From a virus: a DNA stretch of 33,038 bases. The stretch spans positions 1 through 33,038 of IMG/VR virus record IMGVR_UViG_3300037508_000609; one strand, written 5' to 3'. The stretch's first letter is position 1, and every line of letters begins with the position of its first letter. Below, one piece after another: positions 5,855-30,099 of this stretch. The notes under the pieces were generated by a model that did no database searches, was not told the DNA's origin, and worked only from the letters and a program-made list of their open reading frames with translations. Position numbers and translations under genes: made by a program.

Positions 5855-5872
5855 CCTACCTATATAAGTAGG
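5855..5872 (-). promoter_or_regulatory. Shared pre-start element, copy a
   Basis: Read on the minus strand, CCTACTTATATAGGTAGG ends directly at the ATG of the 125-aa gene. CCTAC and GTAGG can pair into a small hairpin. The same kind of element precedes five other genes (8054-8070, 9090-9104, 15127-15143, 15740-15754, 30083-30099). A terminator lies 17 bases upstream. It may be a promoter of an early leaderless transcript type or a translational control site. Confidence 0.65.
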
Positions 5873-5888
5873 TCGGTTTCATGTTAAA

Positions 5889-5913
5889 CAAAAAAGGCCG
5901 CCAAATGGCGACC
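5889..5913 (-). terminator. Rho-independent terminator after the capsid gene pair
   Basis: On the minus strand GGTCGCC-ATTT-GGCGGCC forms a 7-bp stem with one G-U pair, followed by six T. It lies just after the stop of the 170-aa structural gene. It would set high capsid expression apart from the portal segment downstream. Confidence 0.85.
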
Positions 5914-5941
5914 CTTTCTGCATGAAAACACTATGAAAAAA

Positions 5942-6454
5942 TCAAAGACCCAGCGAAGTTACAACAGCGGCCTGAACTTTCAAAGGTAAATCGGTTTCTT
6001 TGTGGAGAAAATTTAATACATGACCTTTGAAGTCACCGAACGCTTGTCCGAAGTTGGTTTCACTCTGCTGCAACTGAACACCATAGTCAGCACCCAGCAG
6101 CCAGTAGTCACCACTTGCATCAAGGGCAATGGCCAACATTCTGTTTTGCGCTAACAATTTAATTTCGTTGCGCTGTGCGGTAGTAACTTTGTGCAGACGA
6201 GCTACCAAGTCAGCTTCGTAAAACACAGTTCCGTTTTCAGTAGAAGGAATTGTGCGCCAAGTCATGGAGCCAGTTTCCTTTTCCAATTCATATTTGAAGT
6301 AGCTTTTGCCACCACTCAAAGTGTGGGCAGAAACTTCGCCTGATGATTTGGTTAATGTAGATTTAGCATCGAACTCAACGAGCCAAATATTTTTGATACC
6401 TGCGGCTGCGGTTTTGCAGTCCAAGGTGAATCCGGTGGTTAATACACAAGGCAT
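5942..6454 (-). CDS. Abundant structural protein next to capsid (tail-tube or decoration type)
   Basis: 170 residues beginning MPCVLTTGFTLDCKTAAAG and continuing with IKNIWLVEF, SYFKYELEKETGSMTWRTIP, ENGTVFYEADLVARLHKVTTA, MLAIALDASGDYWLLGADYG. I remember this pattern from a widespread family of structural proteins in Bacteroidota phages, encoded beside the major capsid. Whether it is the tail tube, a head decoration or a fibre base cannot be settled by reading. It lies between two strong hairpins, which fits separate high expression. Confidence 0.65.
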   Translation of the reverse strand: MPCVLTTGFTLDCKTAAAGIKNIWLVEFDAKSTLTKSSGEVSAHTLSGGKSYFKYELEKETGSMTWRTIPSTENGTVFYEADLVARLHKVTTAQRNEIKLLAQNRMLAIALDASGDYWLLGADYGVQLQQSETNFGQAFGDFKGHVLNFLHKETDLPLKVQAAVVTSLGL

Positions 6455-6473
6455 ATCTTTTTTTTAAATTAAA

Positions 6474-6500
6474 GGGGGGTAGGGTTTTTCCCCACCCCCC
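6474..6500 (-). terminator. GC-rich hairpin between capsid and next gene
   Basis: On the minus strand GGGGGGTGGGG and CCCTACCCCCC pair over 11 bp with one G-U wobble around an AAAAA loop. A loose T-rich run (TTTAATTT) follows before the next start codon. It could be a leaky terminator or an mRNA-stabilising hairpin that raises the capsid transcript relative to downstream genes. Confidence 0.6.
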
Positions 6501-6529
6501 GGGTTAAACTTTTCTATTCGTTTAAATGA

Positions 6530-7477
6530 TTAGAGTGAGAAATACACCACTTGTTCTGGGTATGCCACCTGCACCCCATATTTGAAAGCAGCGTGGAATT
6601 GTATGCGTCTTTCAAATGGGTTGAAAATGAAGGAGTATTCTTCTTCTTCGTTCATCATGTCAGTACCCAAGAAGAAGTTAGACCACAGACCAGCAACAAT
6701 TTTGTTGGTGCCGTTCATACCGTTCAAGCCATAAATCTTGATGCCGGTGATAGGGTCAACGATTTCCATTGCAGAAATTTCATTTGCAGGGTAGTGGAAC
6801 AGATTAGAAGTTACCAACCACTGACGATACAGACGGAACGTATCAGTTCCCATACAAATCATCAGGTCTGATTTGTCCAACAAAGCAGCAGGGATAACGC
6901 TGTAAATAGTACCGAGGATGTCATCGATGTTAGAAGCAGTGATAGAAGCGTAAGCGTTAGCCACGTTACCTTTGATAGGGTCACCTGCACCACCGAAACC
7001 GAGGTCTCCGAGGATAGTCAGGAAGCCATCCCAAAAGCCGTTATTTCCAACACCACCTGTGGTATCACCCTGCCAAATAGCAGTTTCGATAGCTTCGGCA
7101 ATGTCAGCAGCTTTTTCAGCTCCGATTTGGTCGGTGAATACACCCATGTCAATAGCTTCACCAGCGGCAAGAGCTTTCTGTGTGTATTTGGTTTCAAGGT
7201 CTTTGGGGCAAAGAGTTTCCTGAACCTTAACTTTTCCAACGGTCAAAGTGCGCTTGGACAGGGTAGTGTTACCGCTTGTCTGATAAGAGCAGCTGTCAGA
7301 TTGGAAGTAAACGTCTGAATACAGCAAAGGCAGTATTTCAGCAGATTTGATACCGGGGAGAACCTGTCCAGCACCCTGCAAAAGGTTTGCAGTTTTGGCG
7401 GTGAACATCGCTTTGGTCAGAAGGTTTAAGCTCTCTTCTTTGGTGTAATTGGTGAGACCTGTTACGTCAAATGCCAT
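6530..7477 (-). CDS. Major capsid protein
   Basis: 315 residues. The layout fits an HK97-fold capsid protein of Bacteroidota phages: an N-terminal helix, repeated beta segments (SKRTLTVGKVKVQETLCPKDLE), a helix with FTDQIGAEKAADIAEAIETAIWQGD, a domain with LMICMGTDTFRLYRQWLV, and a C-terminal strand set with FNPFERRIQFHAAFKYGVQVAYPEQVVYF. It follows protease and scaffold-like genes and is flanked downstream by a strong hairpin. Together with the 6454-5942 gene it should be the most abundant virion component. The fold call is from memory. Confidence 0.85.
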   Translation of the reverse strand: MAFDVTGLTNYTKEESLNLLTKAMFTAKTANLLQGAGQVLPGIKSAEILPLLYSDVYFQSDSCSYQTSGNTTLSKRTLTVGKVKVQETLCPKDLETKYTQKALAAGEAIDMGVFTDQIGAEKAADIAEAIETAIWQGDTTGGVGNNGFWDGFLTILGDLGFGGAGDPIKGNVANAYASITASNIDDILGTIYSVIPAALLDKSDLMICMGTDTFRLYRQWLVTSNLFHYPANEISAMEIVDPITGIKIYGLNGMNGTNKIVAGLWSNFFLGTDMMNEEEEYSFIFNPFERRIQFHAAFKYGVQVAYPEQVVYFSL

Positions 7478-7486
7478 GATTTTATT

Positions 7487-8053
7487 TTATTTTTTGATTG
7501 ATTTGATTGCGGAAACAAAGCCAAAGAAATTTTCCTCTTTTTCGGGTTTAACTGAACCGAATGGCTTTTTGGTCGGCTCAGGGGTGGTGGCTGCAAACTT
7601 TTCAAACACGCTGAAAGTTTCTTCAACTTTGCCAAGAATGTTTACAAGTGCAGTTTCAAGGGTAGCGATTTTCGCTGCCAGTTCTTCGTTAGCGGCACGG
7701 AGTGCGTCAAACTGCTCCAATGATGCAAACTGATTTTCAACCTCAACTTCTGCAACTTCGGCAGGTTCTTTGGTTTCAATCATTTCAACCACACCATCTT
7801 TGGTAGTTACCAAAAGACCAGTGGTTGTTTCATGCACTCCATCGGGAGCAGGAACGATGCCCTCTTCGCCTTTAACATTCAGGAGCATTCCGGCTGCAAG
7901 TTCCTCACCTTCAAAAACCACGATAGTTCCGTCAACCAAAGTCAACTCACCAAACGCAGCAGGCACAGGTTCTTCGCTGAAACGCTGCTTTACCTCTGCC
8001 ATGAATGCGGCAAGAGATAACTTCATTTCGGCTAATTCTGATTTAAATTCCAT
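7487..8053 (-). CDS. Scaffold-like protein upstream of the capsid gene
   Basis: 188 residues using ATG 8053, which directly follows a copy of the shared pre-start element; an upstream in-frame start at 8089 is less likely. The protein is very acidic and has a coiled-coil stretch (SLEQFDALRAANEELAAKIATLETALVNILGKVEETF, residues ~119-155), a Pro/Lys linker and a basic C-terminus (FVSAIKSIKK). Charge, helix content and position between protease and capsid fit a head scaffolding protein cleaved during maturation. The role is inferred from context. Confidence 0.65.
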   Translation of the reverse strand: MEFKSELAEMKLSLAAFMAEVKQRFSEEPVPAAFGELTLVDGTIVVFEGEELAAGMLLNVKGEEGIVPAPDGVHETTTGLLVTTKDGVVEMIETKEPAEVAEVEVENQFASLEQFDALRAANEELAAKIATLETALVNILGKVEETFSVFEKFAATTPEPTKKPFGSVKPEKEENFFGFVSAIKSIKK

Positions 8054-8070
8054 ATATCTTAAAAGGTAGT
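8054..8070 (-). promoter_or_regulatory. Shared pre-start element, copy e
   Basis: On the minus strand ACTACCTTTTAAGATAT runs directly into ATG 8053 of the scaffold-like gene. It is the most diverged of the six copies. It decides the start: the longer frame would place the element inside coding sequence. Confidence 0.55.
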
Positions 8071-8081
8071 TATGTTTTGCC

Positions 8082-9089
8082 CTATGCAAAATTTTTCAGC
8101 ATGGCGGTAATTTCACGCATCATTTCCAGCACTTCGTCCTGTTCTTCCATGTCAAACAAGCCCTCAACTGAAAATCCTTTCCATTCGCCATCCTTAACTT
8201 TTGCCCATATTTCCTCATTGTCTATTAAATAGGTCAGAAACCAGCTGCCATCTTTTGCATCTTCGTACCCGGTAGGTGGCATCACACCACGTTTGCGGTC
8301 AATGAAGTAGGACTCAATCATGTGAACACCCTCTTTCACAGGGTTGGCATGGTCGGTATTGACTGCTTTATAGGCATCGTTACGCACAAATTTCTTTGCT
8401 ATCTTCCAAATTGTGTCGGCATCGAATGTAACGTAGTACTCACCCCTGATGTCATCGTAGCGGTAAATCGGTAAATCGGCCAACATTGCCGGGCCTGTCA
8501 CAATCCGCTTTTCTTCGGACTGCACAGAGTATGCCTGTCTCATATCAATCTGCTGCAATTTACGACTTGCCCACTCGATGCCCTCATCACCACCCCAAGC
8601 CAACCACATCAGGCGGCCACATCCGTCACCTAATTCCTTGTCGCTGTTCTGCCTGTGCCTTTCAAACCCTGCCATTCGTGCAATCGTGTCACGGGTAATG
8701 GCTTCACCATTTGCCAACTGATTAGCCCTGATTTTACCCACCGCTGTTCCGCAGTCTCCCCATCCGTTTTCTTCTGCCCAACGGAGTGCAACCTTTGCAT
8801 TTTCTTTGGCGGCTTCGGGGTAGTCATCATAGCTTTCAAATTTCTGTCTGCTTTCCCATTTGCTGTAACACACGGCAGCGGCTTGTTCCTGTTCCATGCC
8901 TTCGCCAATCATTACCGGAATGCAACGGCTGATAAATTCATCTTCGGTTTCGTTTGCTGTCGGATCAACGAATTGGTCTTTGAACAGCATGAAGTCTTTT
9001 TGTATGGCTGGGCGGTCAACGAGAGAAACAAAGTCCACCCCTGTTTCATCGTCATCATTGACCACAATTTTGTACACTGGTAATTCCAT
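8082..9089 (-). CDS. XkdF-like prohead serine protease with an inserted domain
   Basis: 335 residues from ATG 9089; a start at 9116 would overlap the tape measure gene and swallow a shared pre-start element. The N-terminus (VDFVSLVDRPAIQKDFMLF) and the C-terminal half (VTGPAMLADLPIYR near 197, NTDHANP with His247, GFSVEGLFD with Ser307) match the XkdF protease pattern with its His and Ser. Residues ~86-180 (PEAAKENAKVALRWAEENGW; CGRLMWLAWGGDEGIEWA) form a separate helical Cys-containing insert that I also associate with XkdF-type and portal proteins. It would cleave scaffold and capsid during head maturation. Confidence 0.8.
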   Translation of the reverse strand: MELPVYKIVVNDDDETGVDFVSLVDRPAIQKDFMLFKDQFVDPTANETEDEFISRCIPVMIGEGMEQEQAAAVCYSKWESRQKFESYDDYPEAAKENAKVALRWAEENGWGDCGTAVGKIRANQLANGEAITRDTIARMAGFERHRQNSDKELGDGCGRLMWLAWGGDEGIEWASRKLQQIDMRQAYSVQSEEKRIVTGPAMLADLPIYRYDDIRGEYYVTFDADTIWKIAKKFVRNDAYKAVNTDHANPVKEGVHMIESYFIDRKRGVMPPTGYEDAKDGSWFLTYLIDNEEIWAKVKDGEWKGFSVEGLFDMEEQDEVLEMMREITAMLKNFA

Positions 9090-9104
9090 AATTATAAAAG
9101 TAGG
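9090..9104 (-). promoter_or_regulatory. Shared pre-start element, copy c
   Basis: On the minus strand CCTACTTTTATAATT is followed directly by ATG 9089 of the protease gene. It begins one base after the TAA stop of the tape measure gene, so the whole spacer between the two genes is this element. Confidence 0.65.
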
Positions 9105-9105
9105 T

Positions 9106-11145
9106 TTAAACGACACTTGTATTTCTTAACCTGCGAACACGGGTCTGCGTTTTGGTGATGTCGCCTTCAAGAACGTACACTCTGCCCATGCCACCGAATT
9201 GCGCTTCTTCTGGTAAAGCACCGCCTGTGAGTGGTGTCATTGCACCGGGGCTTTGTGCTGGTGTTCCAGTTCCACCACCCCCACCACCTACATCTTTTGA
9301 CTCAAATTTTGTTTGCTCAATTTTGCGAACTCTTGCCACACCTGATGCTATTGCAAGGGCAGCAGCAACAGCAGCACGAACAGGAGCATCGGGTGTCGTT
9401 ATAGCCATTTGTGATGCGTATGCCGATTGTGCAGCTTGTATAGTCTCAACAATCGCTTGTGCTATTGATGCTTTTTTCTTAATCTCAAATGCCTTGCGTT
9501 GCTGTTCTTCCGACTTTCCTGCAAAGGCATCAGCAAGTTCAGCAATAGCACCAAATCCACCAGCAGTCAACGCATACATTTGCGCTTCTGCATCCTTTTT
9601 ATCTTGAATTTCTTTTAAGCGTATCTCTTCTTTTTTCTTTGCTGCTTCCTCTTCAAGCTTTACTTCCTCTTCGACTTTCTTTTTATAATCTTCAATATCT
9701 TGGAATGCACGTTCAATTCGTACTTCACGAGCATTTCTTTCAAAAGTTGCTTTTCTTTCTTCGCTTTCTTTTGTGCTTTTTTCAGCAAGTTTAAAACTCT
9801 CGGATAAAATAGAATTTCTTAATTTAAGTTGTGCTTTTAGTTTTTCTGCTTTTGTTGGCTCTTGTGCTTTATTTAGTTCTTTCTGCGCTTTTGTTTGTTT
9901 TTCAAGAGTTGATTTTACTTCCTCGGCAGTTGCGATAGATTGGCCGTGAAGAACAAGTTGTTTATTTCTTTCGTTGTTGTAAACTTTTGTGGAGTCATTA
10001 ACATCTTTTTGTGCTTCTTTTAGATTTGCAAAACCACGTTTTGCCAATTCTTGTGCGCCATTATTTATGCCTGTCAATGCACCAACAGCCCCAGCGTAAA
10101 ACTTATCCCATGAAGAAGTTTGCTCATCAAGGTCACCCGTTTGTAATTCCAATAAACGCTTGGTTTTTTCCTGCAATATTTGGGATGCTGCTTCTGTCCT
10201 TGCACGTTGAGCAATCAACAATATCTGTTTTTGTGTGCGGATGTTCAACTGCTCCAATGAATTTGCGTTTGCAATGTTTACATCATCGGTTGCAATACCT
10301 GCTTCTTTCAGTTTGTCAAGCGCACCTTTTCTTTCTGTTTCACTCTTTTTGGTGTCCTGTACAATTTTATTGTAATACTGCAAATCAGCTGCCTGTTGCC
10401 TTGTCAATCCCTCGGCAACTTTCATGGCAGCATTCATCTTGTCCATCTCGGATTTAGCCAATCCAAGTGCAACCGTAATGTCATCCCAGTAAGCCGCAAC
10501 CGTACCAAGTGCTGCCAATAACAACCCAAGCCCGGTAGCCATGAAAACTTTTGATGCGGTGGTCATTCCTTTGAACGCTTCGATGCCACGCAATCCAAGT
10601 GACTTTAATTGTTTACCAGCTTCACCCAATCCTTCCAATCCCTGTGCGAGTGCCATTGCACCCTGAACTTTTAACAGGGCCTTTTGCACATCTTCGCTTT
10701 CAGCACCAAACAAGGCCATTGCACCCTGTGCCGCCTGTATTCCATTTGCGATACCTTTTGCAACCGTATTTATTCGGTTGAACTTGTCGGGATTTAATGC
10801 CTGAACCTTCTGCTGAAAGTCCTCCATCTGGTCTTTAAGGTCAGCAACCCTTGCCGCTGCTGCTGTTGCTTCGGGTGAAAATTCACCAAACTGCTGCGCT
10901 AACCTTACCGCTTCCTGAGTAGCTTCCCTGATTTGGGTTTTTATAGATTTGAAGCTGTCAAGCCCTTGCGCTAATTTGCTAACCTTTTCGGCTGCTGCCT
11001 GTGCTTCCTTGCTGCTCTCACCAAATTCTTTCGCAATCTTTTTGGCTTCGGCTTCGGCCGCCTTGATTTCTTCTTTTAACTTTTTAACCTGTTCCGCACC
11101 GCTTACCGATGCGTTAAGTTTTATTCCAACTATTGTTTCTGCCAT
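9106..11145 (-). CDS. Tape measure protein
   Basis: 679 residues, mostly helical. Residues ~18-118 are coiled coil rich in Lys, Glu, Ala and Gln. A membrane-type segment lies at ~199-219 (VFMATGLGLLLAALGTVAAYW). More coiled coil covers ~390-520 (KEEIRLKEIQDKKDAEAQ), followed by Ala-rich hydrophobic helices, then a Gly-rich stretch (VGGGGGGTGTP) and a beta-type C-terminus. This is the standard build of a tape measure protein, which sets tail length and helps DNA entry. At ~0.15 nm per residue the tail would be about 100 nm, fitting a siphovirus. It is the largest coiled-coil gene and lies amid tail genes. Confidence 0.8.
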   Translation of the reverse strand: MAETIVGIKLNASVSGAEQVKKLKEEIKAAEAEAKKIAKEFGESSKEAQAAAEKVSKLAQGLDSFKSIKTQIREATQEAVRLAQQFGEFSPEATAAAARVADLKDQMEDFQQKVQALNPDKFNRINTVAKGIANGIQAAQGAMALFGAESEDVQKALLKVQGAMALAQGLEGLGEAGKQLKSLGLRGIEAFKGMTTASKVFMATGLGLLLAALGTVAAYWDDITVALGLAKSEMDKMNAAMKVAEGLTRQQAADLQYYNKIVQDTKKSETERKGALDKLKEAGIATDDVNIANANSLEQLNIRTQKQILLIAQRARTEAASQILQEKTKRLLELQTGDLDEQTSSWDKFYAGAVGALTGINNGAQELAKRGFANLKEAQKDVNDSTKVYNNERNKQLVLHGQSIATAEEVKSTLEKQTKAQKELNKAQEPTKAEKLKAQLKLRNSILSESFKLAEKSTKESEERKATFERNAREVRIERAFQDIEDYKKKVEEEVKLEEEAAKKKEEIRLKEIQDKKDAEAQMYALTAGGFGAIAELADAFAGKSEEQQRKAFEIKKKASIAQAIVETIQAAQSAYASQMAITTPDAPVRAAVAAALAIASGVARVRKIEQTKFESKDVGGGGGGTGTPAQSPGAMTPLTGGALPEEAQFGGMGRVYVLEGDITKTQTRVRRLRNTSVV

Positions 11146-11146
11146 T

Positions 11147-13933
11147 TTATTTGTTTGTTAATGCGTACCACCGTGTTCCGTTGCATACTAAATATGCTGT
11201 TCCCCATTGATTGTTGATGTTGTAATGGTCACTTCCATCTATGTATTCACCGCTTTGTGCCTCTATGCGTAAAGTCCCACCCGAATTTGCTTTGACTATC
11301 CAAAACGCTTTGGATGTTGATGTGCCAACCGGAGGCAATGTAATGGTGTGATTTCCCCCTGCTGAAAAGATAATGATGTCCTTGTCCATTTCAGCAGTAT
11401 AGTTTGCTGTCGGAAATACAAATCGGTTTGTTCCAAAACTGTTAGGTTGTATTAACTGCCCTTGCATCCACACTTCGTTGCATCCTGCGTAACCTGATGG
11501 TGGTGCTTGTCCAATTACAATGCTATCATCGCAAATGAAAGTCACTCCGCTGGTTGCAAAGGCAGCGTTTCTATTTCCAAAGTTTGAAAGGATATTCCCT
11601 ACCATTATGCCATCACCGGCATCGTTATATTGACCTATATTGAAGCCACGCTGACTTATTACTTTATTCGTTGTCTTGCCACCTTCGGGGTCTTTTTCAT
11701 CTTTTATATTGTCATTGCCTTGGCTTCCACCACCGCCCACGCTTCCTGTCGTTGCCGTGAATGTCGGCCCTGCTTTAAGGAACAAAAACTCACAGATATT
11801 AACCGATGGGTTAATCGGGTCATAATCCTCTATCTTATTCAACCGGAAGTAATTGCCATCGAAAAAGTAAAGATCACGGAATGACAGCTTTTCCATGTCG
11901 GCCGGGGTAAGATAAAAATGGCCTCTTACTATCTTGCTGTCCTTGTCTATAATTTCAGACATATACTTTGACCAGTAAGCATTGAACAAATTATTGTTGG
12001 TCATTTCTGTGCCTGCTGGAATACCTATAAATCTCGGCATCCCATAGTTAATATCCGATGTAGGTGTTTTTGGATTGTCCAAATGCCCTGTGTATGGATA
12101 TTTTGTTTTGTTGGTAGATGTACCACCAAGCACTCTTACTTTGCCATTATAAACTAAATAAGGATTGCAAGACAACGCAGCATATTGCAATATCCTGATT
12201 TTACCAGTGTTGAAATTTAGGTTGTCGCCATTGTCAATATAGGTTAGTGTTTTGTCATCCTTTGGAAATGAGTTTAAAATAGAAGCACCAAATCCTGTTT
12301 CAATTTTCTTTTCATCTTTGACAAAATCATTTTCAATAAATATCTGTCTGTCACCGTATATTCGATTGTAATCGGATTTATATTCTTTGTTGCCTTCATC
12401 ATCACCCTCTTGATGGGTGAAGATATATTTACCTGCTTCAAGTTCACCCATTGGAATGATGTCAAGTGGCTGTGACAAATCCCTTTTCTTTGTCCAATCT
12501 CTTACCGTGTTGATGTAAAATTCCTCACGTGGCAGAATTAAAAGCTCGTTTGTCATTTCAGTTGGTTCAACATATAAATTGAACATCCTGAAAATCCACC
12601 TTAAAAATTCCGCTTGTTTTGTTTCCTCATTGAAAAATCCAATAAAATCTATTGTATTGTTATATCCCGGTGCATCAACAATTTGATTGTAAAATTTAGT
12701 ACCAGAATTTTGAATAAAAGAATTTAATGTGATGTCTGTTCTAGCCGCAATCAACTGACCATTTATTTGAATGTTGTCAAGTAAAATAGACACCACATCA
12801 CCCTGATTTAATGCCAAACTTTCACCCACTAAAATTGTTTCATCAAATGTGATTATTTTTGTTTCAGGGGTTGTGGTGTGTGTAACAATTTGAAGCTGCC
12901 CATTTCTTACTGCCGCCCTGATGCCGTTGACATATATAGAATAAATGCAACTGAAACGCTGTTGAATATTTTGGGTTACAACAGAATTAAAAGTTACATT
13001 TAATGTGGATTTATTGTAAATAAACAAGTCATACTGCCCTGTCTTGCCAACCGTGAACTCACTGGTTGTCGTATTGAATTGGTTTGAAGGGTCAGTTATC
13101 TCCGTTTGAAATGTAATCTTTTGCGGAATGGTTATGGTTTGCCCTGATGATTTTTGAACAAGGAATTGTCGTGATTGTATTTCGGCTTCGGGCAATACCG
13201 GGAATTGAGTAGGGCAAGGCACTACCAATCTTTTGAACTGCGCTGTGTTGAAAAACGAACCGCTTGTATATGTGTACCCAGCACCACTGAAAATCTTGTC
13301 TACAATGTTTTTGGCATATAGACACACACTCATGTCATCTGTTTGGAATGTGCTATAATCAGGGTATCTGCCATTGTCTAACCAAGTGTACACATAGCCC
13401 TCACCAATAGGTGCGCCACCGCTAAAATTCACATAGCCGCTGCTGTTTTTGATTATCGAAGTGTCCCACGAATTGAAAATGTTGGTGTCACTCATGATGT
13501 GATTGTACTCCGTAAAACTCAAATCACTCAATTTGCTGTCCGCAATCTTGGCGGTAAGGTCAGCCAATTGCCCGTGCATGGAGCATTCATACTCAATTTG
13601 GTTCAGGTCGTTAACCTTAATCGACAACAAACGGATAAAACCTTCTATCTGTGTTACCTCATCCACCGTCAGCAGCGCATCGGCTTTCAGGTTAGGATTG
13701 AAATCAGGGCTGAAATTAGTGGATGTCGTGTTACGGATGGACAGGTTCAAATCAAACAAGTGCGTGAACAGCTTGTTGTTGGTCTTTGTACCCGGTAACG
13801 TGAATGTCTTTGTCCAGTCCGATGACCTGCTTTCAGGTTCACGGATGTCGGCAATGGACTTATTTATCTGTATTCCAAAATCGGTAGGCAGGTCTACGCT
13901 GTACCCACCGCATACTAATCTTACGTTGTTCAT
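11147..13933 (-). CDS. Large tail-tip / baseplate protein
   Basis: 928 residues, mostly beta. It begins MNNVRLVCGGYSVDLPTDFG with IADIREPESRSSDWTKTFTLPGTKTNN (residues ~29-55), a start I remember from large tail proteins of Bacteroidota phages. Residues ~430-470 (GFFNEETKQAEFLRWIFRMFNLYVEP) suggest a hub-like helix bundle. A Gly/Ser linker (GSVGGGGSQGND, ~727) separates a C-terminal beta domain with IIIFSAGGNHTITLPP, resembling a fibre domain. It sits between the 398-aa tail protein and the tape measure gene. It probably forms the tail tip that contacts the host. The function is inferred from order and size. Confidence 0.7.
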   Translation of the reverse strand: MNNVRLVCGGYSVDLPTDFGIQINKSIADIREPESRSSDWTKTFTLPGTKTNNKLFTHLFDLNLSIRNTTSTNFSPDFNPNLKADALLTVDEVTQIEGFIRLLSIKVNDLNQIEYECSMHGQLADLTAKIADSKLSDLSFTEYNHIMSDTNIFNSWDTSIIKNSSGYVNFSGGAPIGEGYVYTWLDNGRYPDYSTFQTDDMSVCLYAKNIVDKIFSGAGYTYTSGSFFNTAQFKRLVVPCPTQFPVLPEAEIQSRQFLVQKSSGQTITIPQKITFQTEITDPSNQFNTTTSEFTVGKTGQYDLFIYNKSTLNVTFNSVVTQNIQQRFSCIYSIYVNGIRAAVRNGQLQIVTHTTTPETKIITFDETILVGESLALNQGDVVSILLDNIQINGQLIAARTDITLNSFIQNSGTKFYNQIVDAPGYNNTIDFIGFFNEETKQAEFLRWIFRMFNLYVEPTEMTNELLILPREEFYINTVRDWTKKRDLSQPLDIIPMGELEAGKYIFTHQEGDDEGNKEYKSDYNRIYGDRQIFIENDFVKDEKKIETGFGASILNSFPKDDKTLTYIDNGDNLNFNTGKIRILQYAALSCNPYLVYNGKVRVLGGTSTNKTKYPYTGHLDNPKTPTSDINYGMPRFIGIPAGTEMTNNNLFNAYWSKYMSEIIDKDSKIVRGHFYLTPADMEKLSFRDLYFFDGNYFRLNKIEDYDPINPSVNICEFLFLKAGPTFTATTGSVGGGGSQGNDNIKDEKDPEGGKTTNKVISQRGFNIGQYNDAGDGIMVGNILSNFGNRNAAFATSGVTFICDDSIVIGQAPPSGYAGCNEVWMQGQLIQPNSFGTNRFVFPTANYTAEMDKDIIIFSAGGNHTITLPPVGTSTSKAFWIVKANSGGTLRIEAQSGEYIDGSDHYNINNQWGTAYLVCNGTRWYALTNK

Positions 13934-15126
13934 GCGTTTTGCAACCTTTCAGGTTCTGTATATTCAACTGTGATTTGCAGGTTGTTCGGGCCATCAATGT
14001 AATCAAACACCTCATAATTGGTGTCTGTGATATTGACCGGGATGTCACCCAAGAAAACCACAGGTGAAGCAATCAAATCTTGCAGCCATTCAAACTCAAC
14101 TTCATTCAGCCAGTTTGTGTTCAGGACAACTTGCTTTGTCTTTTCGGTAGCATACGAAGTCATCCCATGCTTTGTTTTGTCATACGCAAATGTGTTGCCT
14201 GTCAGCGTGTAGTTATTGCGTTTGAACTGCTTTCTGCTAACGCTGTATTTGTCACGTGATGCCATGCTGCAACGCACACTTTCAAAGCCACCCAACGGGT
14301 TCAGGAAGTAAAGATATTGCGGCACATATTTGCTGCATTCTTCCACCACATCAAAGCGGTACACTTCGCTGAAATTGCCACCAATGGTCTGGGTGAACTG
14401 AATGGTGTAATATGCCGTGCCAACAGGCACAACGCTTCCGGGTGTTCCCGATGTCAACTCCCCTGCTGTCAGTGCGTTTAACTGAACCACACCTGCACCA
14501 AATCTAACCATGAATTGTGATGTGTCTGCTGTACTTGGAGTCCAAGGCAGTTTCAAATAACTTGTGGCAATGGCTGAACCTGCGGCATTGTATGCTATGA
14601 CCTTAGGTTCGATGTTAAAACCGAGCAGCAAAAAATATAGGTAGTCGTACTGCTCACGGGTCACAATTCTTGGCCGCACACGTGTGAGAAATTTGGCTGA
14701 ATTAGGTGTTACATTTATCTTGTAAGTGTCGGGTGTTTCGCTGCCGTACAGATTAAACAGGCCATTCCATACATATTTACCCGTGTCGGATGTCAGGTTC
14801 AGGTATTCAGTGCCGCCATATTCCTCACCAAATTCAACTGAATATGCAAGGTAGCTGTTATTGCACTTGCTGATTGCAGTCAGGCCCAGCGTGAAATCGT
14901 ATGTAACATAGTTTTGCAGGATGCGGCTGATGTTGAACACACCCTTGTCGGTAGTGCCGTGAAATATCGGGGCTTTCAGTTTGGCTATCGTAGTGCCTGA
15001 TGCGTTTTTGATTACCGCAATAAACTTGAAATTTGCCTGTGCGTAGTTGGTCGAAGTGACCACGTATGAAACATCCGAATAAACCGGGGCGACATCATTC
15101 GGCTCGGTATTGATTGTAATTGCCAT
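13930..15126 (-). CDS. Tail protein, distal-tail type
   Basis: 398 residues, beta-rich. The start (MAITINTEPNDVAPVYSDVS) and NYAQANFKFIAVIKNASGTT fit a structural protein with an Ig-like or jelly-roll N-terminal domain. The middle has YLYFLNPLGGFESVRCSM and the end has FEWLQDLIASPVVFLG, which resembles distal tail proteins of Bacteroidota phages. It overlaps the 928-aa tail gene by 4 bases. A copy of the shared pre-start element sits directly before its ATG. Confidence 0.65.
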   Translation of the reverse strand: MAITINTEPNDVAPVYSDVSYVVTSTNYAQANFKFIAVIKNASGTTIAKLKAPIFHGTTDKGVFNISRILQNYVTYDFTLGLTAISKCNNSYLAYSVEFGEEYGGTEYLNLTSDTGKYVWNGLFNLYGSETPDTYKINVTPNSAKFLTRVRPRIVTREQYDYLYFLLLGFNIEPKVIAYNAAGSAIATSYLKLPWTPSTADTSQFMVRFGAGVVQLNALTAGELTSGTPGSVVPVGTAYYTIQFTQTIGGNFSEVYRFDVVEECSKYVPQYLYFLNPLGGFESVRCSMASRDKYSVSRKQFKRNNYTLTGNTFAYDKTKHGMTSYATEKTKQVVLNTNWLNEVEFEWLQDLIASPVVFLGDIPVNITDTNYEVFDYIDGPNNLQITVEYTEPERLQNA

Positions 15127-15143
15127 CTACCTAAAAAAGTAGG
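15127..15143 (-). promoter_or_regulatory. Shared pre-start element, copy b
   Basis: On the minus strand CCTACTTTTTTAGGTAG runs into ATG 15126. CCTAC and GTAG can form a hairpin. A second partial copy of the right half (ATAGGTAGG) lies just upstream at 15150-15158, so the region has nested inverted repeats of the same unit. Confidence 0.65.
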
Positions 15144-15154
15144 TTTGCTCCTAC

Positions 15155-15739
15155 CTATGTAGTGGCAATCTCACTTGTAACGTATGCGGTGATGGGTTTA
15201 CCCAAGGCATCTCCCAAGTGCTGTGCGATTGCATCTATATTGGCAGGGGTCAGCACATCGCCTATAAAATTACCGCCTTTGTAACCAAACCTCTTTATCG
15301 TTCCTTTGGATGCTATTTTACGGGCAATGGCAATGGCCATAGATTTACGGGCTTCTAAAACTGATTGTGTGCTTTGCTCTTTTGATTTACGGACAGGAAT
15401 ACCCTTTGCACTTATCCATTCCTCAATAGATGCAATCGGTGGTCTTTTGCCTTTGCGCCTACCTTGGTCAGCCCACAAATAGTAATTTGCCATTTCGATT
15501 GGCACGGTCACTCCGTTGGCATTTTCCTGAAAGTCACCGATGTTGACACTTGACCGCAGGTTTTTGGTAGCGACCAATTTCTTTTCTGTAATGTCTTGCC
15601 GCAACGCATCCACCAATCTTTGAGCCACACCTAAAACAAGGTCAGCAAGTAATGAATTAGGCATGGGGCTGTCAGGTATTCCGAACTTATCCAGCAATCC
15701 TTTGTTGATTGCATCCAGTTGCGCTTTGGTAATGTTCAC
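15155..15739 (-). CDS. HK97 gp10-like neck / tail-completion protein
   Basis: 194 residues. The centre holds SSVNIGDFQENANGVTVPIEMANYYLWADQGRRKGKRPP (residues ~65-102), the mark of HK97 gp10-like proteins: a strand pair followed by a Tyr, Trp and Gly motif and basic residues. The rest is amphipathic helix (SMAIAIARKIASKGTIKRFG). Such proteins join the head to the tail or cap the tail tube. The start codon is GTG at 15739, directly after a shared pre-start element. Confidence 0.7.
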   Translation of the reverse strand: MNITKAQLDAINKGLLDKFGIPDSPMPNSLLADLVLGVAQRLVDALRQDITEKKLVATKNLRSSVNIGDFQENANGVTVPIEMANYYLWADQGRRKGKRPPIASIEEWISAKGIPVRKSKEQSTQSVLEARKSMAIAIARKIASKGTIKRFGYKGGNFIGDVLTPANIDAIAQHLGDALGKPITAYVTSEIATT

Positions 15740-15754
15740 ACTTATAAAAGTAGA
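15740..15754 (-). promoter_or_regulatory. Shared pre-start element, copy d
   Basis: On the minus strand TCTACTTTTATAAGT leads directly into GTG 15739 and differs from copy c at two positions. It follows at once on a terminator hairpin (15757-15776), so the downstream gene must either restart transcription here or depend on readthrough. Confidence 0.65.
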
Positions 15755-15756
15755 AA

Positions 15757-15776
15757 CCCCGACACAATGGCCGGGG
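15757..15776 (-). terminator. Terminator of the 15.8-kb small RNA
   Basis: On the minus strand CCCCG-N10-CGGGG forms a 5-bp GC stem, extended by A-T pairs after a bulged G, and is followed by TTTCTACTTTT. The T-run is interrupted, so strength is uncertain. Confidence 0.6.
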
Positions 15777-15864
15777 CTTCATCCGTAGGGGGTTCGAACT
15801 CCTATCCTCACCAATGGTGAGATGTTACCCTTTGCCGCTATTCATTCACGGTTACACCAACGGT
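15757..15864 (-). ncRNA. Small tRNA-like RNA with own promoter and terminator
   Basis: About 108 nt are predicted between a promoter (15869-15899) and a terminator. The RNA has a T-arm-like hairpin, AGGAG-TTCGAAC-CCCCT with one mismatch (15787-15803), and a strong hairpin CTCACC-ATT-GGTGAG (15807-15821) in the place of an anticodon arm. A possible acceptor stem pairs TAACCGT with ACGGATG imperfectly. The D region is too long and position 33 is not U in the best tRNA fold, so a working tRNA is unlikely. It lies between the chaperone and gp10-like genes. It could be a decayed tRNA or a regulatory RNA. Confidence 0.45.
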
Positions 15865-15868
15865 ATTT

Positions 15869-15899
15869 CAAACTTACAACATTTCCTGCATCAATGCAA
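15869..15899 (-). promoter_or_regulatory. Bacteroidota-type promoter for the 15.8-kb RNA
   Basis: On the minus strand TTG (15899-15897), 20 bases, then TAAGTTTG (15876-15869). This matches the TTG-N19/20-TAnnTTTG consensus of the Bacteroidota primary sigma factor. The start would lie near 15864, before the tRNA-like region. It overlaps the end of the chaperone frame. Confidence 0.65.
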
Positions 15900-19633: not shown

Positions 19634-19635
19634 TG

Positions 19636-19665
19636 TTGTTTCTTTGTTTTTTTTGATTATCTTTG
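19636..19665 (+). promoter_or_regulatory. Promoter of the tRNA-like gene
   Basis: TTG at 19636-19638, 19 bases, then TATCTTTG at 19658-19665, a full match to the Bacteroidota consensus. It points right, against the surrounding genes. The expected start (~19670) is six bases before the tRNA-like fold. Confidence 0.75.
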
Positions 19666-19675
19666 TCGCATATAA

Positions 19676-19746: not shown

Positions 19747-20460
19747 CAAATTAGCCCTGCGTTCTTGCAGGGTTATTTTTTGCCCCTTATACATACCTGC
19801 TCCCATTTCATCTATTTTACTGAAAGGTAAAATAGGAACGGTTATTTTGCAGGTTTTATCAATTAGGTAAATGTATTTTAATTGTTTACCGAGTAATGGT
19901 TTACCTTTTAATACATCCACCATATATTTTTTAGCATTGCCATAACCACTTTCTAACATCTTTTTTCTTAATGCTCCGTGCTGTCCACCTTGTAATCCCA
20001 TTAAATGTAAAGTTTCTCCATTTGGAAGTTGATATATTTGTTTGCTTTCATTAATATTTGTTAAAACAAAACCACTTGCCCGGTATATTGTGCCATCACC
20101 ACATTGCGTTGCATCGGCAAAGCTGATAACCCATTTTATATGTGGAGCATTTTTTTTGATAAGCAATAAACAAATTTTAATAAACCTACTTTCAGTGTTT
20201 TTAGGTGTGCCGTCAATACACACCAAACGGTTTAATTCTAAAAAATCGTTCCATTTGGTATTTTCAACGATATGCAAATGTAGATATTTATTTATAGGTC
20301 TTCCCCATTGTGCAACACCTATCATTTTATTATCTAAAAAAGCACCAAAGCAAATTAAACCAGTTGCAGCAACCTTTCCGCTGTAATGGTGCTGCTTTAC
20401 AAATTCATTGGCAATCTTTGACGGGATAACCTTTACAATTATTTCTTTTGCTCTGCCCAT
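19702..20460 (-). CDS. Mom-like DNA modification protein (GNAT-type)
   Basis: 252 residues. The pattern ANEFVKQHHYSGK (~18-30), FGAFLDNKMIGVAQWGRP (~38-55), LELNRLVCIDGTPKNTESRF (~73-92), WVISFADATQCGDGTIYRASGF (~109-130) matches phage Mom and related acetyltransferase-fold proteins. Mom of phage Mu modifies adenines in phage DNA to block restriction. The gene is visibly richer in A and T than its neighbours, which hints at recent transfer. Its last ~27 codons overlap an antisense terminator and tRNA-like gene, so the C-terminus may be a late addition. It overlaps the ParB-like gene by 22 bases. Confidence 0.75.
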   Translation of the reverse strand: MGRAKEIIVKVIPSKIANEFVKQHHYSGKVAATGLICFGAFLDNKMIGVAQWGRPINKYLHLHIVENTKWNDFLELNRLVCIDGTPKNTESRFIKICLLLIKKNAPHIKWVISFADATQCGDGTIYRASGFVLTNINESKQIYQLPNGETLHLMGLQGGQHGALRKKMLESGYGNAKKYMVDVLKGKPLLGKQLKYIYLIDKTCKITVPILPFSKIDEMGAGMYKGQKITLQERRANLSGEVGSNSNSKLDV

Positions 20461-22675: not shown

Positions 22676-22926
22676 AGGTATCGGTCAATTAATGCTCCAA
22701 ATATAGCACATAATGCACCATAAATAACTCCGTATAATCCAAATTCAACGCTAAACCATACCAGCCCGGTCCACCATGATAGGCAGAAACCACATTCAAA
22801 TGGTTTTATTGTCTTGCGGTAACGGCTGTCCAAGGCATAGACAAATGAAATCATCGGGGGAAAGAAGTACCTGGAAAGCAGAACGCACAATGCGGCCACT
22901 CCCAAAATGTCAGTCATCGTATTCAT
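22672..22926 (-). CDS. Membrane protein with CxxC motif (DUF1360-like)
   Basis: 84 residues: a hydrophobic N-terminal helix (ILGVAALCVLLSRYFF), a basic loop (DSRYRKTIKPF), then ECGFCLSWWTG and a C-terminal hydrophobic stretch. The CGFC-x-SWWxG pattern resembles DUF1360-type membrane proteins found in phages and bacteria. It overlaps the sigma-like gene by 17 bases. A role in superinfection control or lysis timing is possible but unsupported. Confidence 0.65.
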   Translation of the reverse strand: MNTMTDILGVAALCVLLSRYFFPPMISFVYALDSRYRKTIKPFECGFCLSWWTGLVWFSVEFGLYGVIYGALCAIFGALIDRYL

Positions 22927-23506
22927 TATATTTTTCTTTGATTTGTGTTTTGATTGCGTTTATTATTTGGCTTATCTCTCGGTAGTTTATTTTGGTGTCA
23001 CGGGCAATCATTGCCATGCTCTGTTTGTCTTCCCACAACTGCCATAACTTTACCACATACCACTCACTCCGGTTGAAATGATTAGCCACCTCTTTGAAAT
23101 TGACAGACTCCACGGCTTCCTGTTTGCGCCTGATGTGTGTTTCGTCATAATCTTCCGCTTCCTCATCGTAATTTTCGGGCAGGGTTTCTGTGGTGCGCAG
23201 AAAATCCCGGTAAAACTTTGTGTAACGATTGCCGTTGACCGCATTGCATCCCACCCGGACAAGGTAGTACACCAGTCCATTACTTTGGTGAAGTGATATA
23301 AGGCGGTCGGCATCCATTTCACAGCAGATAAGTAGAAGGTGTTGTTGTAGGTCGGCAGCAACGTGAGACCCTATTTTGTTACAGAAGTCAGGCAGCCATT
23401 TGGAATTGGCAAGTTCAATCAGTATCTCTGTGCGCTTGTTCAAGTTTAAGTGCGTGAACTTTTTTGAGCCAATCTTTGAATGACTTGTTATCCCCATACC
23501 GGGCAT
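22910..23506 (-). CDS. Sigma-70-like transcription factor
   Basis: Up to 198 residues. The part after ~residue 22 matches the layout of small phage sigma-like factors: ILIELANSKWLPDFCNKIG and HVAADLQQHLLLICCEM (region 2-like), VYYLVRVGCNAVNGN, an acidic linker, and a helix-turn-helix (IARDTKINYREISQIINAIK, region 4-like). The ATG at 23506 overlaps the HNH gene by 92 bases; TTG at 23443 gives a better start because it removes residues that only reflect HNH coding. It probably redirects the host RNA polymerase to late phage promoters. Confidence 0.65.
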   Translation of the reverse strand: MPGMGITSHSKIGSKKFTHLNLNKRTEILIELANSKWLPDFCNKIGSHVAADLQQHLLLICCEMDADRLISLHQSNGLVYYLVRVGCNAVNGNRYTKFYRDFLRTTETLPENYDEEAEDYDETHIRRKQEAVESVNFKEVANHFNRSEWYVVKLWQLWEDKQSMAMIARDTKINYREISQIINAIKTQIKEKYNEYDD

Positions 23507-23684
23507 GGTCTTTCCTGCATAATGCCATCAGGTTTTCAATCACATCAGCGTGTTTGCTTCCACCCATCCCCCGGGCTTCGATATGGTGAATGTCCACAGC
23601 TTGTGCGCCACATACCTCGCATGGGATAAAATCACTTTTGTCATAGCCGAAATGGTCAAGGTATACCTTGGTATGCTTCTTCAC
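23415..23684 (-). CDS. HNH endonuclease
   Basis: 89 residues with CEVCG (22-26), DIHHIEARGMGG (31-42), NLMALCRKDHARYG (51-64): two zinc-binding Cys pairs and the HH...N...H active site of HNH nucleases. Phage HNH proteins of this size often assist terminase in DNA cutting. It is the first gene of the leftward block. The start is GTG at 23684, four bases after a TTTG that resembles a weak promoter -7 element (TAAACTTTG). Confidence 0.8.
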   Translation of the reverse strand: MKKHTKVYLDHFGYDKSDFIPCEVCGAQAVDIHHIEARGMGGSKHADVIENLMALCRKDHARYGDNKSFKDWLKKVHALKLEQAHRDTD

Positions 23685-23795
23685 GGCACAAAGTTTATTC
23701 GTAAAAGGTCGATATTTTTATATTGTGGATAACTTTTATAAAAATAATTTAACAAAAACTATTGCAAGTATAGAAAAGTATATTATATTTGCGGT
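23685..23795. promoter_or_regulatory. Divergent control region with DnaA box, candidate origin
   Basis: This gap separates the leftward and rightward gene blocks and is very AT-rich. A perfect DnaA box, TTATCCACA, lies on the minus strand at 23724-23732. A consensus rightward promoter ends at 23791. The phage encodes a DnaA domain IV protein (26614-27069) that could bind the box, so an origin or replication-linked switch is plausible. Confidence 0.55.
23762..23791 (+). promoter_or_regulatory. Early promoter P1, leaderless
   Basis: TTG at 23762-23764, 19 bases, TATATTTG at 23784-23791, then CGGT and the ATG at 23796. The expected transcription start coincides with the start codon, so the mRNA should lack a 5' leader. 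Confidence 0.75.
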
Positions 23796-26585: not shown

Positions 26586-26609
26586 ATATAAATAATTAAA
26601 CTATATTTG
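26580..26609 (+). promoter_or_regulatory. Early promoter P2, leaderless
   Basis: TATATTTG at 26602-26609, then CACC and ATG 26614. At 19 bases upstream the -33 box reads TTT instead of TTG, so it is weaker than P1, P3 and P4. It overlaps the end of the helicase gene. Confidence 0.6.
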
Positions 26610-27069: not shown

Positions 27070-27082
27070 TTTACTATATTTG
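27053..27082 (+). promoter_or_regulatory. Early promoter P3, leaderless
   Basis: TTG at 27053-27055 (in TTTG), 19 bases, TATATTTG at 27075-27082, then CACC and ATG 27087. A full consensus match, with the -33 box inside the end of the DnaA-like gene. Confidence 0.75.
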
Positions 27083-28009: not shown

Positions 28010-28027
28010 AAACTTATACTATATTTG
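27998..28027 (+). promoter_or_regulatory. Early promoter P4, leaderless
   Basis: TTG at 27998-28000 (in TTTG), 19 bases, TATATTTG at 28020-28027, then CATC and ATG 28032. A full consensus match with the same 4-base spacing to the ATG as P1-P3. Confidence 0.75.
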
Positions 28028-28031
28028 CATC

Positions 28032-28256: not shown

Positions 28257-28297
28257 CAAGGCAAAAACTAAACTAACACTTTAATATTCCAAGGACA

Positions 28298-28759
28298 ATG
28301 AATGAAACACTAACCGCACCTATTCAGCCAAACGAGATTGAATGGCGGGTGCAATCAGTCACCAGCACAGGCAAAATGATTGTCGTGCCTTACATCAACA
28401 ATCGCTGTGTAATGCAACGATTTGACGCTGCCTTCGGGCCGACAAATTGGACTTCCGAGTTCAGGGAAATAGGCAACGGATTTATTTGCCGCCTTACTGT
28501 GAACGTAGATGGTCAATTTGTCTACCGGGAAGATGGTGCATCCAAGACAAATATCGAACCTGAAAAGGGTGGTATCAGCGATGCAATGAAAAGGGCTGCG
28601 GTGCAGTTTGGTTTGGGCCGATGCCTGTACGATTACCCCAAGGTATTCATTGAATGCAACGACAAGTATATCCCTGACTGGGCGCAGGACAAATTAACCA
28701 AGCTGGTTGAGTGGGTAAATCTCGGTAACTTCAAAGAAGTAATAATTTTGAAGCCATGA
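28298..28759 (+). CDS. Rad52-like single-strand annealing protein
   Basis: 153 residues. EWRVQSVTSTGKMIVVPYIN (~15-34), CVMQRFDAAFGPTNWTSEFR (~38-57), FVYREDGASKTNIEPEKGGI (~74-93) and SDAMKRAAVQFGLGRCLYDY (~94-113) match the phage Rad52/Rad22 fold pattern. Such proteins anneal complementary single strands during recombination-driven replication. It stands beside the SSB-like gene. A 41-base gap before it shows no promoter match; an AAGGA lies upstream of the ATG. Confidence 0.85.
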   Translation: MNETLTAPIQPNEIEWRVQSVTSTGKMIVVPYINNRCVMQRFDAAFGPTNWTSEFREIGNGFICRLTVNVDGQFVYREDGASKTNIEPEKGGISDAMKRAAVQFGLGRCLYDYPKVFIECNDKYIPDWAQDKLTKLVEWVNLGNFKEVIILKP

Positions 28760-29160
28760 ACAATAAGTATAAACAAACTATTGACACATACACATCTTAC
28801 TTAAAAGATGTCTATAATGGTGCATTAAATGACAATGAATTGATTGCCAAATATGGTGTAGGTTCAAACATTAAACACGCTTTAATTATTTGTGGTTATT
28901 CTGACAAAAATGGGTTGTCAACTATGACAAAACCACCAACGGCAAAAGATGCTGAAATAGTTAGAAAAACAAGACATGATTACGACATAGGCAAATACAG
29001 CAAACGCAAATATGTTCGTAAAGCAGTACAACAAAGAACTGAACTTATTTTGCCTATTAAAAAAAGAGAGCCACGAAAAACAAGTAAGCTAATGCAACTT
29101 AAACCAACATCTACAAAAGAGATTTCAATTTTGTGGGGCGCAATAAAAATAACGCTATGA
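28756..29160 (+). CDS. Basic protein of unknown function (134 aa)
   Basis: 134 residues: KYKQTIDTYTSYLKDVYNGA at the start, a helix-turn-helix-like part (DNELIAKYGVGSNIKHALII), and a strongly basic C-terminal half (GKYSKRKYVRKAVQQR, KKREPRKTSKLMQ). DNA or RNA binding is probable. The gene is AT-rich compared with its neighbours, a sign of different origin. It is coupled by ATGA overlaps on both sides. Confidence 0.65.
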   Translation: MNNKYKQTIDTYTSYLKDVYNGALNDNELIAKYGVGSNIKHALIICGYSDKNGLSTMTKPPTAKDAEIVRKTRHDYDIGKYSKRKYVRKAVQQRTELILPIKKREPRKTSKLMQLKPTSTKEISILWGAIKITL

Positions 29161-29555
29161 CAGATGTAGTTAAATTGATGTTTGATGTTGAGGAAGGCAA
29201 CGCATCCGCTTTGGATGCGTTCTGCCACCTCACCCGGTTGGAAAAGCAAATCAAAGCCGCCAAAGAGCAGATACAATCCCAAGCCATAAACGAAGCACAG
29301 ATGTATGGCAAGACATTTCAGCACATGGGCTTTGAAATCCAATGCCGTTCTGGTGCAGGTCGGTGGAAGTTTGACCATTTGGATGAATGGGTTGTTGCAA
29401 AAAACCAACTTGCAACCGTTGAAGATATGGCAAAGTGGGCATATAAGTCGGAAGAAAAAGGAGTGATGCCCGTTACCGATGGCGGAGAGATTATTACGGC
29501 TGCTGTTTATGTGGCAGGAAGTGACACCATTGCATTGAAGGAGATTGACAAATGA
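29157..29555 (+). CDS. Hypothetical protein with coiled coil (132 aa)
   Basis: 132 residues from ATG 29157, which overlaps the preceding TGA as ATGA; a GTG at 29133 is possible but less likely. Residues ~15-50 form a helix (LDAFCHLTRLEKQIKAAKEQ), followed by FQHMGFEIQCRSGAGRWKFD and an acidic end. In similar phages such a protein sits with recombination or Gam-like nuclease inhibitors, but I cannot assign it. The next gene starts in its stop codon. Confidence 0.6.
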   Translation: MTDVVKLMFDVEEGNASALDAFCHLTRLEKQIKAAKEQIQSQAINEAQMYGKTFQHMGFEIQCRSGAGRWKFDHLDEWVVAKNQLATVEDMAKWAYKSEEKGVMPVTDGGEIITAAVYVAGSDTIALKEIDK

Positions 29556-29824
29556 AACAGACAGCAGTAGGGTGGTTGGTTGAGCAATTAAGACAATTTG
29601 CATTTGACACAAATCATCATCTTGGATTAGGTGATGTTCGTTTAACGCAAGGGCAGATAGACGAATTGGAAGAACAAGCAAAAGAAATGGAAAAGCAGCA
29701 AATGATTGAATTTGGATATGCTTGTGCGAACCAAATTGACATGAATGATAATGGAGAGTTACTAATGGTTAAATCACCAAAGGAGTTGTACAACGAAAAA
29801 TACGGAGGTAACAATGCTGAATAA
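29552..29824 (+). CDS. KQTAV-motif phage protein (paralogue of the 63-aa gene)
   Basis: 90 residues: KQTAVGWLVEQLRQFAFDTN, an extra loop (HHLGLGDVRLTQ), then EEQAKEMEKQQMIEFGYACA and an acidic tail. It shares the start and AKEMExQQxI motif with the 63-aa gene at 19093-19284. ATGA overlap with the previous gene. Function unknown. Confidence 0.65.
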   Translation: MKQTAVGWLVEQLRQFAFDTNHHLGLGDVRLTQGQIDELEEQAKEMEKQQMIEFGYACANQIDMNDNGELLMVKSPKELYNEKYGGNNAE

Positions 29825-29996
29825 ACGTGAAATACCCAAGTCAGTTGAACAATGGGAGCCACCATGCGAGGATGAAGCCACAGAAGCACATCCCTACGAT
29901 TACACCCAAATGCCTGACGACATCCCCAGCGTAGATGACTGGTTCAAAATCAGGGTGTGGCAGGATGAATTAAACGGCACAGCCCTGACAAATTAG
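29814..29996 (+). CDS. Small acidic protein (60 aa)
   Basis: 60 residues, acidic and rich in Pro and Trp: REIPKSVEQWEPPCEDEATE, DYTQMPDDIPSVDDWFKIRV. GGAGGTAACA just before the ATG is the best Shine-Dalgarno-like site on this strand. No membrane segment. Function unknown. Confidence 0.6.
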   Translation: MLNKREIPKSVEQWEPPCEDEATEAHPYDYTQMPDDIPSVDDWFKIRVWQDELNGTALTN

Positions 29997-30083
29997 ATGG
30001 TATTTGGTTTAATGTTGTATATTGCCCCTGCCTTGTTAGCATTCATCGACTTTTTGGTGGATGTTAGCAATCGCAGGGGCTAA
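29997..30083 (+). CDS. Possible 28-aa membrane peptide
   Basis: Starts at ATG 29997 directly after the TAG of the previous gene and reads MVFGLMLYIAPALLAFIDFL, then VDVSNRRG. One membrane helix with a basic end. Its stop abuts a shared pre-start element. The same DNA forms a hairpin (30024-30080), so the frame could be chance. Confidence 0.45.
   Translation: MVFGLMLYIAPALLAFIDFLVDVSNRRG
30024..30080 (+). terminator. Hairpin with internal direct repeat before the phosphoesterase gene
   Basis: GCCCCTGC (30024-30031) and GCAGGGGC (30073-30080) pair perfectly around a 41-base loop. The loop carries TGTTAGCAttC and TGTTAGCAatC as direct repeats (30034, 30062). TAACTACTTTTATAG follows, a weak T-tract that belongs to the shared pre-start element. 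It may stop or slow early transcription. Confidence 0.4.
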
Positions 30084-30099
30084 CTACTTTTATAGATAG
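30083..30099 (+). promoter_or_regulatory. Shared pre-start element, copy f (plus strand)
   Basis: ACTACTTTTATAGATAG lies directly before ATG 30100. It is the only copy on the plus strand, and like copies a and d it follows a hairpin. Its presence in the early block shows the element is not tied to one strand. Confidence 0.65.

Follow-up and report, generated by a model that had tools for sequence, protein, structure and literature searches.

A short element at six start codons

The virus record IMGVR_UViG_3300037508_000609, a phage of Bacteroidota bacteria, was analyzed over its whole length of 33,038 bases (the window). On the minus strand, genes for an HNH protein and a sigma-like protein are followed by a terminase gene and then by genes for portal, protease, and peptidoglycan-binding proteins; a replication block with DnaB helicase and Rad52-like genes lies on the plus strand, as does a phosphoesterase gene. 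This study concerns a short element that stands directly in front of six genes of this phage. Five copies lie on the minus strand: copy a (5855–5872) before a 125-residue gene without a family match (5477–5854), copy b (8054–8070) before a gene in scaffold-like position (7487–8053), copy c (9090–9104) before the protease gene (8082–9089), copy d (15127–15143) before gene 13930–15126, and copy e (15740–15754) before the gene in neck position (15155–15739). Copy f (30083–30099) lies on the plus strand, before the phosphoesterase gene (30100–31107).

All six copies had been reported in a preliminary description of the sequence, and each indeed ends at the start codon. Its labels for the protease and phosphoesterase genes agree with the families found, Peptidase_S78_2 and phrog_221. 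Its "capsid" gene behind copy a is in fact the 125-residue gene without a family match, and no named family stands behind its labels "neck," "tail," and "scaffold." The probable capsid gene is 6530–7477 (phrog_11320, function unknown), which has no copy of the element in front of it.

When compared with CTACTTTTATAGNTAG, copy f has no mismatches, copies a and d have one each, copy c has two, and copy e has three; copy b has more than three and was not returned by the search. At up to three mismatches, the window holds six matches, two of which are the two strands of a near-palindrome at copy a. In 100 shuffles of the window, the mean was 0.60 and the maximum 4, with none reaching six. A 12-column matrix made from related phages ranked the six copies as the top six sites of the window, with scores from 19.9 to 14.6 bits, the next site scoring 13.0 bits.

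Anatomy of the element and distance to the start codon

Related loci were fetched by searches with the sigma-like protein, the 398-residue gene, and the phosphoesterase, some of which listed at most 80 loci. They fall into close relatives (group 1), relatives with 67–69% identity in the sigma-like protein (group 2), relatives with 35–37% identity (group 3; G011, G012, G023, and G024), and short contigs (group 4; L138, L139, L141, and L146). Groups 1 and 2 gave 56 distinct sites, which were included when 8 or more of the 12 letters agreed with the consensus, a rule that biases the set toward that consensus; seven of 63 sites were dropped in this way, six of them group 2 sites e and one a site b.

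TA is present at 55 of the 56 sites, the next position is C at all of them, and position 6 of the resulting TAnnnT hexamer is T at 51. The distance between the end of the hexamer and the start codon is 7 nt at 25 sites, 8 nt at 12, 9 nt at 11, 10 nt at seven, and 6 nt at one, so that several genes show the arrangement expected of a −10-type promoter for leaderless mRNA, for which TAnnnT should lie some 7 to 12 nt before the start.

The Bacteroidota primary-sigma promoter consists of a −33 TTTG and a −7 TAHHTTTG (PMC6847099). The preliminary description held that no standard signal of Bacteroidota looks like the element. This holds with a reservation: the TAC-T-TTT core lies near the register of the −7 box, but the G of that box (−5) occurs at none of the 56 sites, and the first free position of the TAHHTTTG register is C at every one of them. 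The missing G rules out that the element is an exact host −7 box.

The element in related phages

The preliminary description had proposed a search for the motif upstream of starts in related phages, and such a search confirmed the element. In records G001–G010, CTACTTTTATAG (at most one mismatch) has 43 copies, 41 of which lie 0 to 8 nt before a reading frame of at least 60 codons; one of the other two lies inside the gene in neck position and one before a tRNA-like RNA. The same records contain two copies of the reversed pattern, neither of them before a start. Over 18 records, the counts are 63 for CTACTTTTATAG and five for the reversed control, with no copies in G011 and G012, which carry the group 3 form. 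The viral collection has 46 stretches with all 18 specified bases of CTACTTTTATAGNTAGATG; 42 of these match at least three genes of the window and two match two, and in the remaining two, which match no window gene, the bases precede a 14-codon frame.

More distant phages carry other letters. The group 3 form, GTACTATT, has 12 copies in the four records, 11 of which precede a start by 6 to 8 nt and one of which precedes a tRNA-like RNA, as compared with 11 matches, one of them before a start, for four independent permuted octamers. The exact octamer has exceptions at site b and at sites a and d of G011. In group 4, all eight copies of GGTACATTT on the four contigs lie 6 nt before a GTG, three controls gave no match, and the letters of site e are identical in three of the four contigs. 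In a contig of Mucilaginibacter pedocola TBZ30, two orthologues have CTTTTTATACTTAA at a distance of 4 nt upstream of their starts. A contig of a Bacteroidetes metagenome-assembled genome (MAG), G026, has three copies of a longer form, located 9, 17, and 35 nt upstream of ATG codons; two of these copies share a long flank and may stem from a recent duplication. The element thus keeps its place while its letters change with the phage clade, a pattern that is expected of a promoter with its own sigma factor.

The gene at site f of group 2 bears a weak likeness to the phosphoesterase (30% identity over 60 residues, E = 0.002). The ATTTTTATAC sites of M. pedocola in L280 were set aside; one precedes a start that we take to be TerD-like, and the DNA is perhaps that of the host.

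Hairpins and a tRNA-like RNA next to the element

Terminator-like hairpins had been described before copies a, d, and f. At copy a, a hairpin at 5888–5921 on the minus strand (−23 kcal/mol, z = −5.6) does have a T-rich tail, and it is absent from the list of our terminator-like scan. A further one, at 15753–15780 on the minus strand (−19.3 kcal/mol, z = −3.7, T-rich tail), precedes and touches copy e. The long hairpin before copy f (30024–30080, plus strand; −37.9 kcal/mol, z = −9.4) lacks a T run, and the hairpin at copy d overlaps the element itself. Across positions 1–20000 of the window, the scan gave 26 terminator-like hairpins, little above the shuffle mean of 21.4; the rest of the window gave 21, with a shuffle mean of 13.1. 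The GGGGGG-TTCG-CCCCCC hairpin that precedes the element in group 4 has a T run, and it folds no better than shuffles (z = −1.0 and −1.2).

The preliminary description also saw CCTAC/GTAGG arms that could form a hairpin over the start region. CTAC can indeed pair with GTAG at copies a (−7.4 kcal/mol) and d. This arm is not conserved, however: GTAG is found at nine of the 56 distinct sites and at none of sites b, c, and e, with the group 2 copies at site f, which lie outside this set, also carrying it. A hairpin or RNA operator was therefore rejected as a general feature of the element.

Between copy e and the gene upstream of it, a tRNA-like stretch (15781–15864, minus strand) was recognized by eye; neither ARAGORN nor Rfam called it. 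In group 1 and in G011, G012, and G023, this stretch precedes the element, which then adjoins the start codon. The order in group 2 and G024 is element, tRNA-like RNA, and then the gene, some 130 nt further on. Downstream of the element, seven distinct group 2 sequences of site e have either no start codon or a frame of 10 to 26 codons that shifts between copies. This change of order argues for an RNA that begins at the element. Since the element can stand before a tRNA-like RNA or 9 to 35 nt from an ATG, it more likely marks an RNA start than a site of ribosome binding.

The tRNA-like RNA before the gene in neck position is 113 to 116 nt long in 14 distinct copies (for instance L122:9271–9384, L124:9259–9372, L133:8139–8253, and L079:16301–16416). 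It has acceptor-like ends and a T arm with compensatory changes, and it lacks an ordinary anticodon arm. Between CCAT and TAAC lies a 6-nt palindrome that exists in six versions (TCCGGA, GCGCGC, GTCGAC, AGGCCT, AGCGCT, and GTGCAC) and is possibly a dimerization site. Rfam returned solely subthreshold matches to transfer-messenger RNA (tmRNA).

A sigma-like protein

The gene at 22910–23443 on the minus strand encodes a protein of 177 residues, with a TTG start assigned from the alignment with relatives. An HNH gene (23415–23684, minus strand; PF01844) lies directly upstream and overlaps it. AlphaFold2 predicted two helical parts joined by a low-confidence linker, with mean pLDDT values of 74.6 and 77.5. 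The first eight rows of a Foldseek search with this model are chains of sigma factors or transcription initiation complexes, some of which we presume to be such chains from their names. In structural realignments, many rows are sigma factors (best Z = 8.0), and other helix-turn-helix proteins are among them. A homologue from group 3 matches TIGR02937, a sigma70-ECF model, almost from end to end (E = 5.1e-6, 26.2 bits), and matches to the sigma factor family phrog_1740 are weak (best E = 0.53 and 0.011). A sequence search of the Protein Data Bank with the sigma profile returned nothing relevant. The predicted fold, together with the one weak family match, makes it likely that the protein is a sigma factor.

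The sigma-like gene is present in 21 of 29 records. The other eight comprise five fragments of 5.4 to 10.5 kb, one distant MAG, and two records that do carry the element, G013 and G017; these two were rejected as counterexamples, as both records break off at the sigma gene or beside it. Within the family of M. pedocola, the sigma-like profile was found in one of 201 genomes, that of M. pedocola itself. Among 50,697 phage records, tblastn gave no match to the sigma-like protein, to the candidate capsid protein, or to the homologue from M. pedocola.

Host-type boxes before early genes

Four plus-strand genes of the window have the host-type −7 box TATATTTG 4 nt before their ATG codons: at 23784–23791 (ATG at 23796), 26602–26609 (26614), 27075–27082 (27087), and 28020–28027 (28032). 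In 12 related records, TAHHTTTG lies 4 nt before a start in 55 cases and 5 nt in 20, with at most eight cases at any other distance up to 39 nt. In Flavobacterium johnsoniae, many RNAs begin 4 to 5 nt after the eight-letter −7 box (PMC6847099). Because the boxes peak at just this distance from early starts, the early genes, like the late ones, look leaderless.

Behind a TATATTTG box, some relatives have a candidate small RNA that begins with AGTAAGGC and ends in a terminator-like hairpin just before a late element. Its starts, on the plus strand, are L080:10145, L103:9146, L110:2077, L138:5576, and L146:2948, with five distinct sequences. The candidate of L110 had no Rfam match up to E = 0.5.

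Interpretation of the element and rival explanations

We consider it probable, and hold this with good confidence, that the copies are late promoters with practically no leader and that a sigma factor of the phage reads them. Comparison between phages thus lends good support to one of the two readings in the preliminary description, a promoter for the phage sigma-like factor that would give leaderless mRNAs, and does not support the other, an RNA site that controls translation. In the proposed mechanism, the late promoter would be a box of the −10 type, made up of (C/G)TAC, a T-rich run, and a clade-specific downstream part. If the box-to-start geometry of F. johnsoniae (PMC6847099) applies to the element, RNA would begin 0 to 4 nt ahead of the start codon, and the mRNAs would have no leader or almost none. 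The two-domain (sigma2/sigma4-like) protein of the phage at 22910–23443 would be their likely reader. Early genes would use the host primary sigma through TATATTTG, and since these boxes lie 4 nt before ATG, both gene sets would lack 5′ leaders. The position of the element, its conservation, the clade-specific letters at the same sites, its displacement together with a noncoding RNA, the lack of a conserved hairpin, and the predicted sigma-like fold are the features from which we infer an RNA start at the element, late timing, and recognition by the phage sigma-like protein. For the wider proposal, a near-wholly leaderless program in which host-sigma boxes 4 nt before ATG serve early genes and late boxes have drifted together with the phage sigma into clade dialects at the same gene starts, we see somewhat better than even chances.

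Several observations weigh against these proposals. The sigma-like protein of the window has no sigma family match (PHROGs up to E = 0.001, Pfam up to 0.1, NCBIfam up to 1), and the TIGR02937 match of that group 3 homologue falls below the curated cut-off (26.2 versus 42.9 bits). No Foldseek match is significant by itself (best E = 0.12), and Z values of 7 to 8 are also reached by unrelated helical models. The group 4 contigs are too short to show the sigma gene. Distant prophage-like contigs do not have the element at all orthologous starts (none at three orthologues of site d), and G027, a contig of this kind, has no clear form of it. There is no clear −35 box, base counts upstream of the six sites giving weak, site-dependent preferences, and position 6 of the hexamer is not T at five of the 56 sites. 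Finally, the early expression of the sigma-like gene is our supposition, because the HNH and sigma-like genes have no exact host box upstream in the window.

An alternative that we regard as unlikely is that the host primary sigma reads the late promoters by way of a relaxed form of its −7 box, perhaps helped by an activator or coactivator from the phage in place of a phage sigma. The core TACTTTTA equals TAHHTTT plus A, nearly the host box and its register, and TACATTTA of group 4 is one letter off that box. Yet all 56 sites lack the G of the host box and have C at the first free position, these phages retain the exact host box at their early genes, and the letters of the element vary by phage clade. 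Chance, or mere common ancestry of flanking DNA, deserves next to no weight: close relatives do share long flanks at each site, but six different sites of one genome carry the element, beyond every shuffle, and the reversed pattern and permuted octamers in relatives, as well as the gene matches of the 46 CTACTTTTATAGNTAGATG stretches, contradict it.

Two further explanations place the signal in RNA. Control of translation at the start codon, by a protein or a hairpin, would account for the position of the element and for the CTAC/GTAG pairing at copies a and d, with GTAG also present at site f of group 2. We consider it very improbable in view of the scarcity of the GTAG arm, and of elements that precede the tRNA-like RNA some 130 nt from the gene or stand 9 to 35 nt from an ATG. 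Slightly less credence still goes to processing, in which longer transcripts would be cut at the element to give leaderless mRNAs. Read-through RNA is conceivable at copies c and d, which lie within or close behind upstream genes, and cleavage before the tRNA-like RNA would fit as well; however, terminator-like hairpins adjoin copies a and e, and processing leaves the spacing between TAnnnT and the start unexplained.

Comparison with known promoter systems

Phage sigma factors and late promoters have long been known; T4 gp55, with TATAAATA, and SPO1 gp28 are phage sigma factors that read late promoters. The present system resembles them in having a short box of the −10 type before late genes and a small sigma-like protein encoded by the phage. 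It differs in its consensus, in its Bacteroidota-type host, and in a box placement that implies leaderless mRNAs, and its reader is a predicted one. What appears to be new, judged from sequence comparison, is that the element is placed at start codons, that the early set is leaderless as well, and that the clades have their own dialects. Full-text literature searches yielded no account of late promoters in Bacteroidota phages, which is weak evidence of absence.

The late element resembles the Bacteroidota primary-sigma promoter (PMC6847099) in its TA and its T run, which nearly keep the register of the host box, and it differs in lacking the G at −5 and in its fixed C at −10; the early genes use the exact box. 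The motif TANNNT about 12 bp upstream of the start has been read as a signal of leaderless genes, signals in Bacteroidetes being largely atypical (PMC3160421). The TAnnnT of the element lies at about that distance, but it comes with additional conserved, clade-specific letters and is confined here to phage genes. Phage AR9 likewise has one consensus box for its early promoters and another for its late ones; unlike the phage studied here, it has RNA polymerases of its own and 5′ leaders of 26 to 491 nt (PMC5312081).

In F. johnsoniae, 87% of the predicted transcripts with a probable promoter have leaders of more than 10 nt (PMC6847099), so phages in which several transcripts seem to start at the start codon would provide a test of leaderless translation in Bacteroidota. 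From the clade-specific letters it can be predicted which bases the sigma factor reads, which makes sigma–promoter coevolution testable; if the proposal is true, a leaderless program with clade dialects would be a natural series in which to read that coevolution.

Other features of the genome

The ends of the window, 1–1401 and 31638–33038, are repeats of one another with 93.2% identity on alignment, and the genome therefore probably has a circular map of about 31.6 kb. The repeats suggest a circular or permuted genome with ends assembled from two variants. Several related contigs measure 30 to 32 kb. The portal protein (3729–5480, minus strand) matched four records of the Nonlabens phages P12024L and P12024S at 27% identity, and its C-terminal residues 421–470 weakly resemble a TrmB winged helix (E = 0.0072). 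A tRNA-Gly (tcc) lies at 19676–19747 on the plus strand, opposite to the surrounding genes; L099 and L138 also have a tRNA-Gly (tcc). L152 (DHLV01000215.1), a contig of 3,968 bases from a Flammeovirgaceae MAG, has a terminase with 89% identity, which is a hint at the host group or else a binning error.

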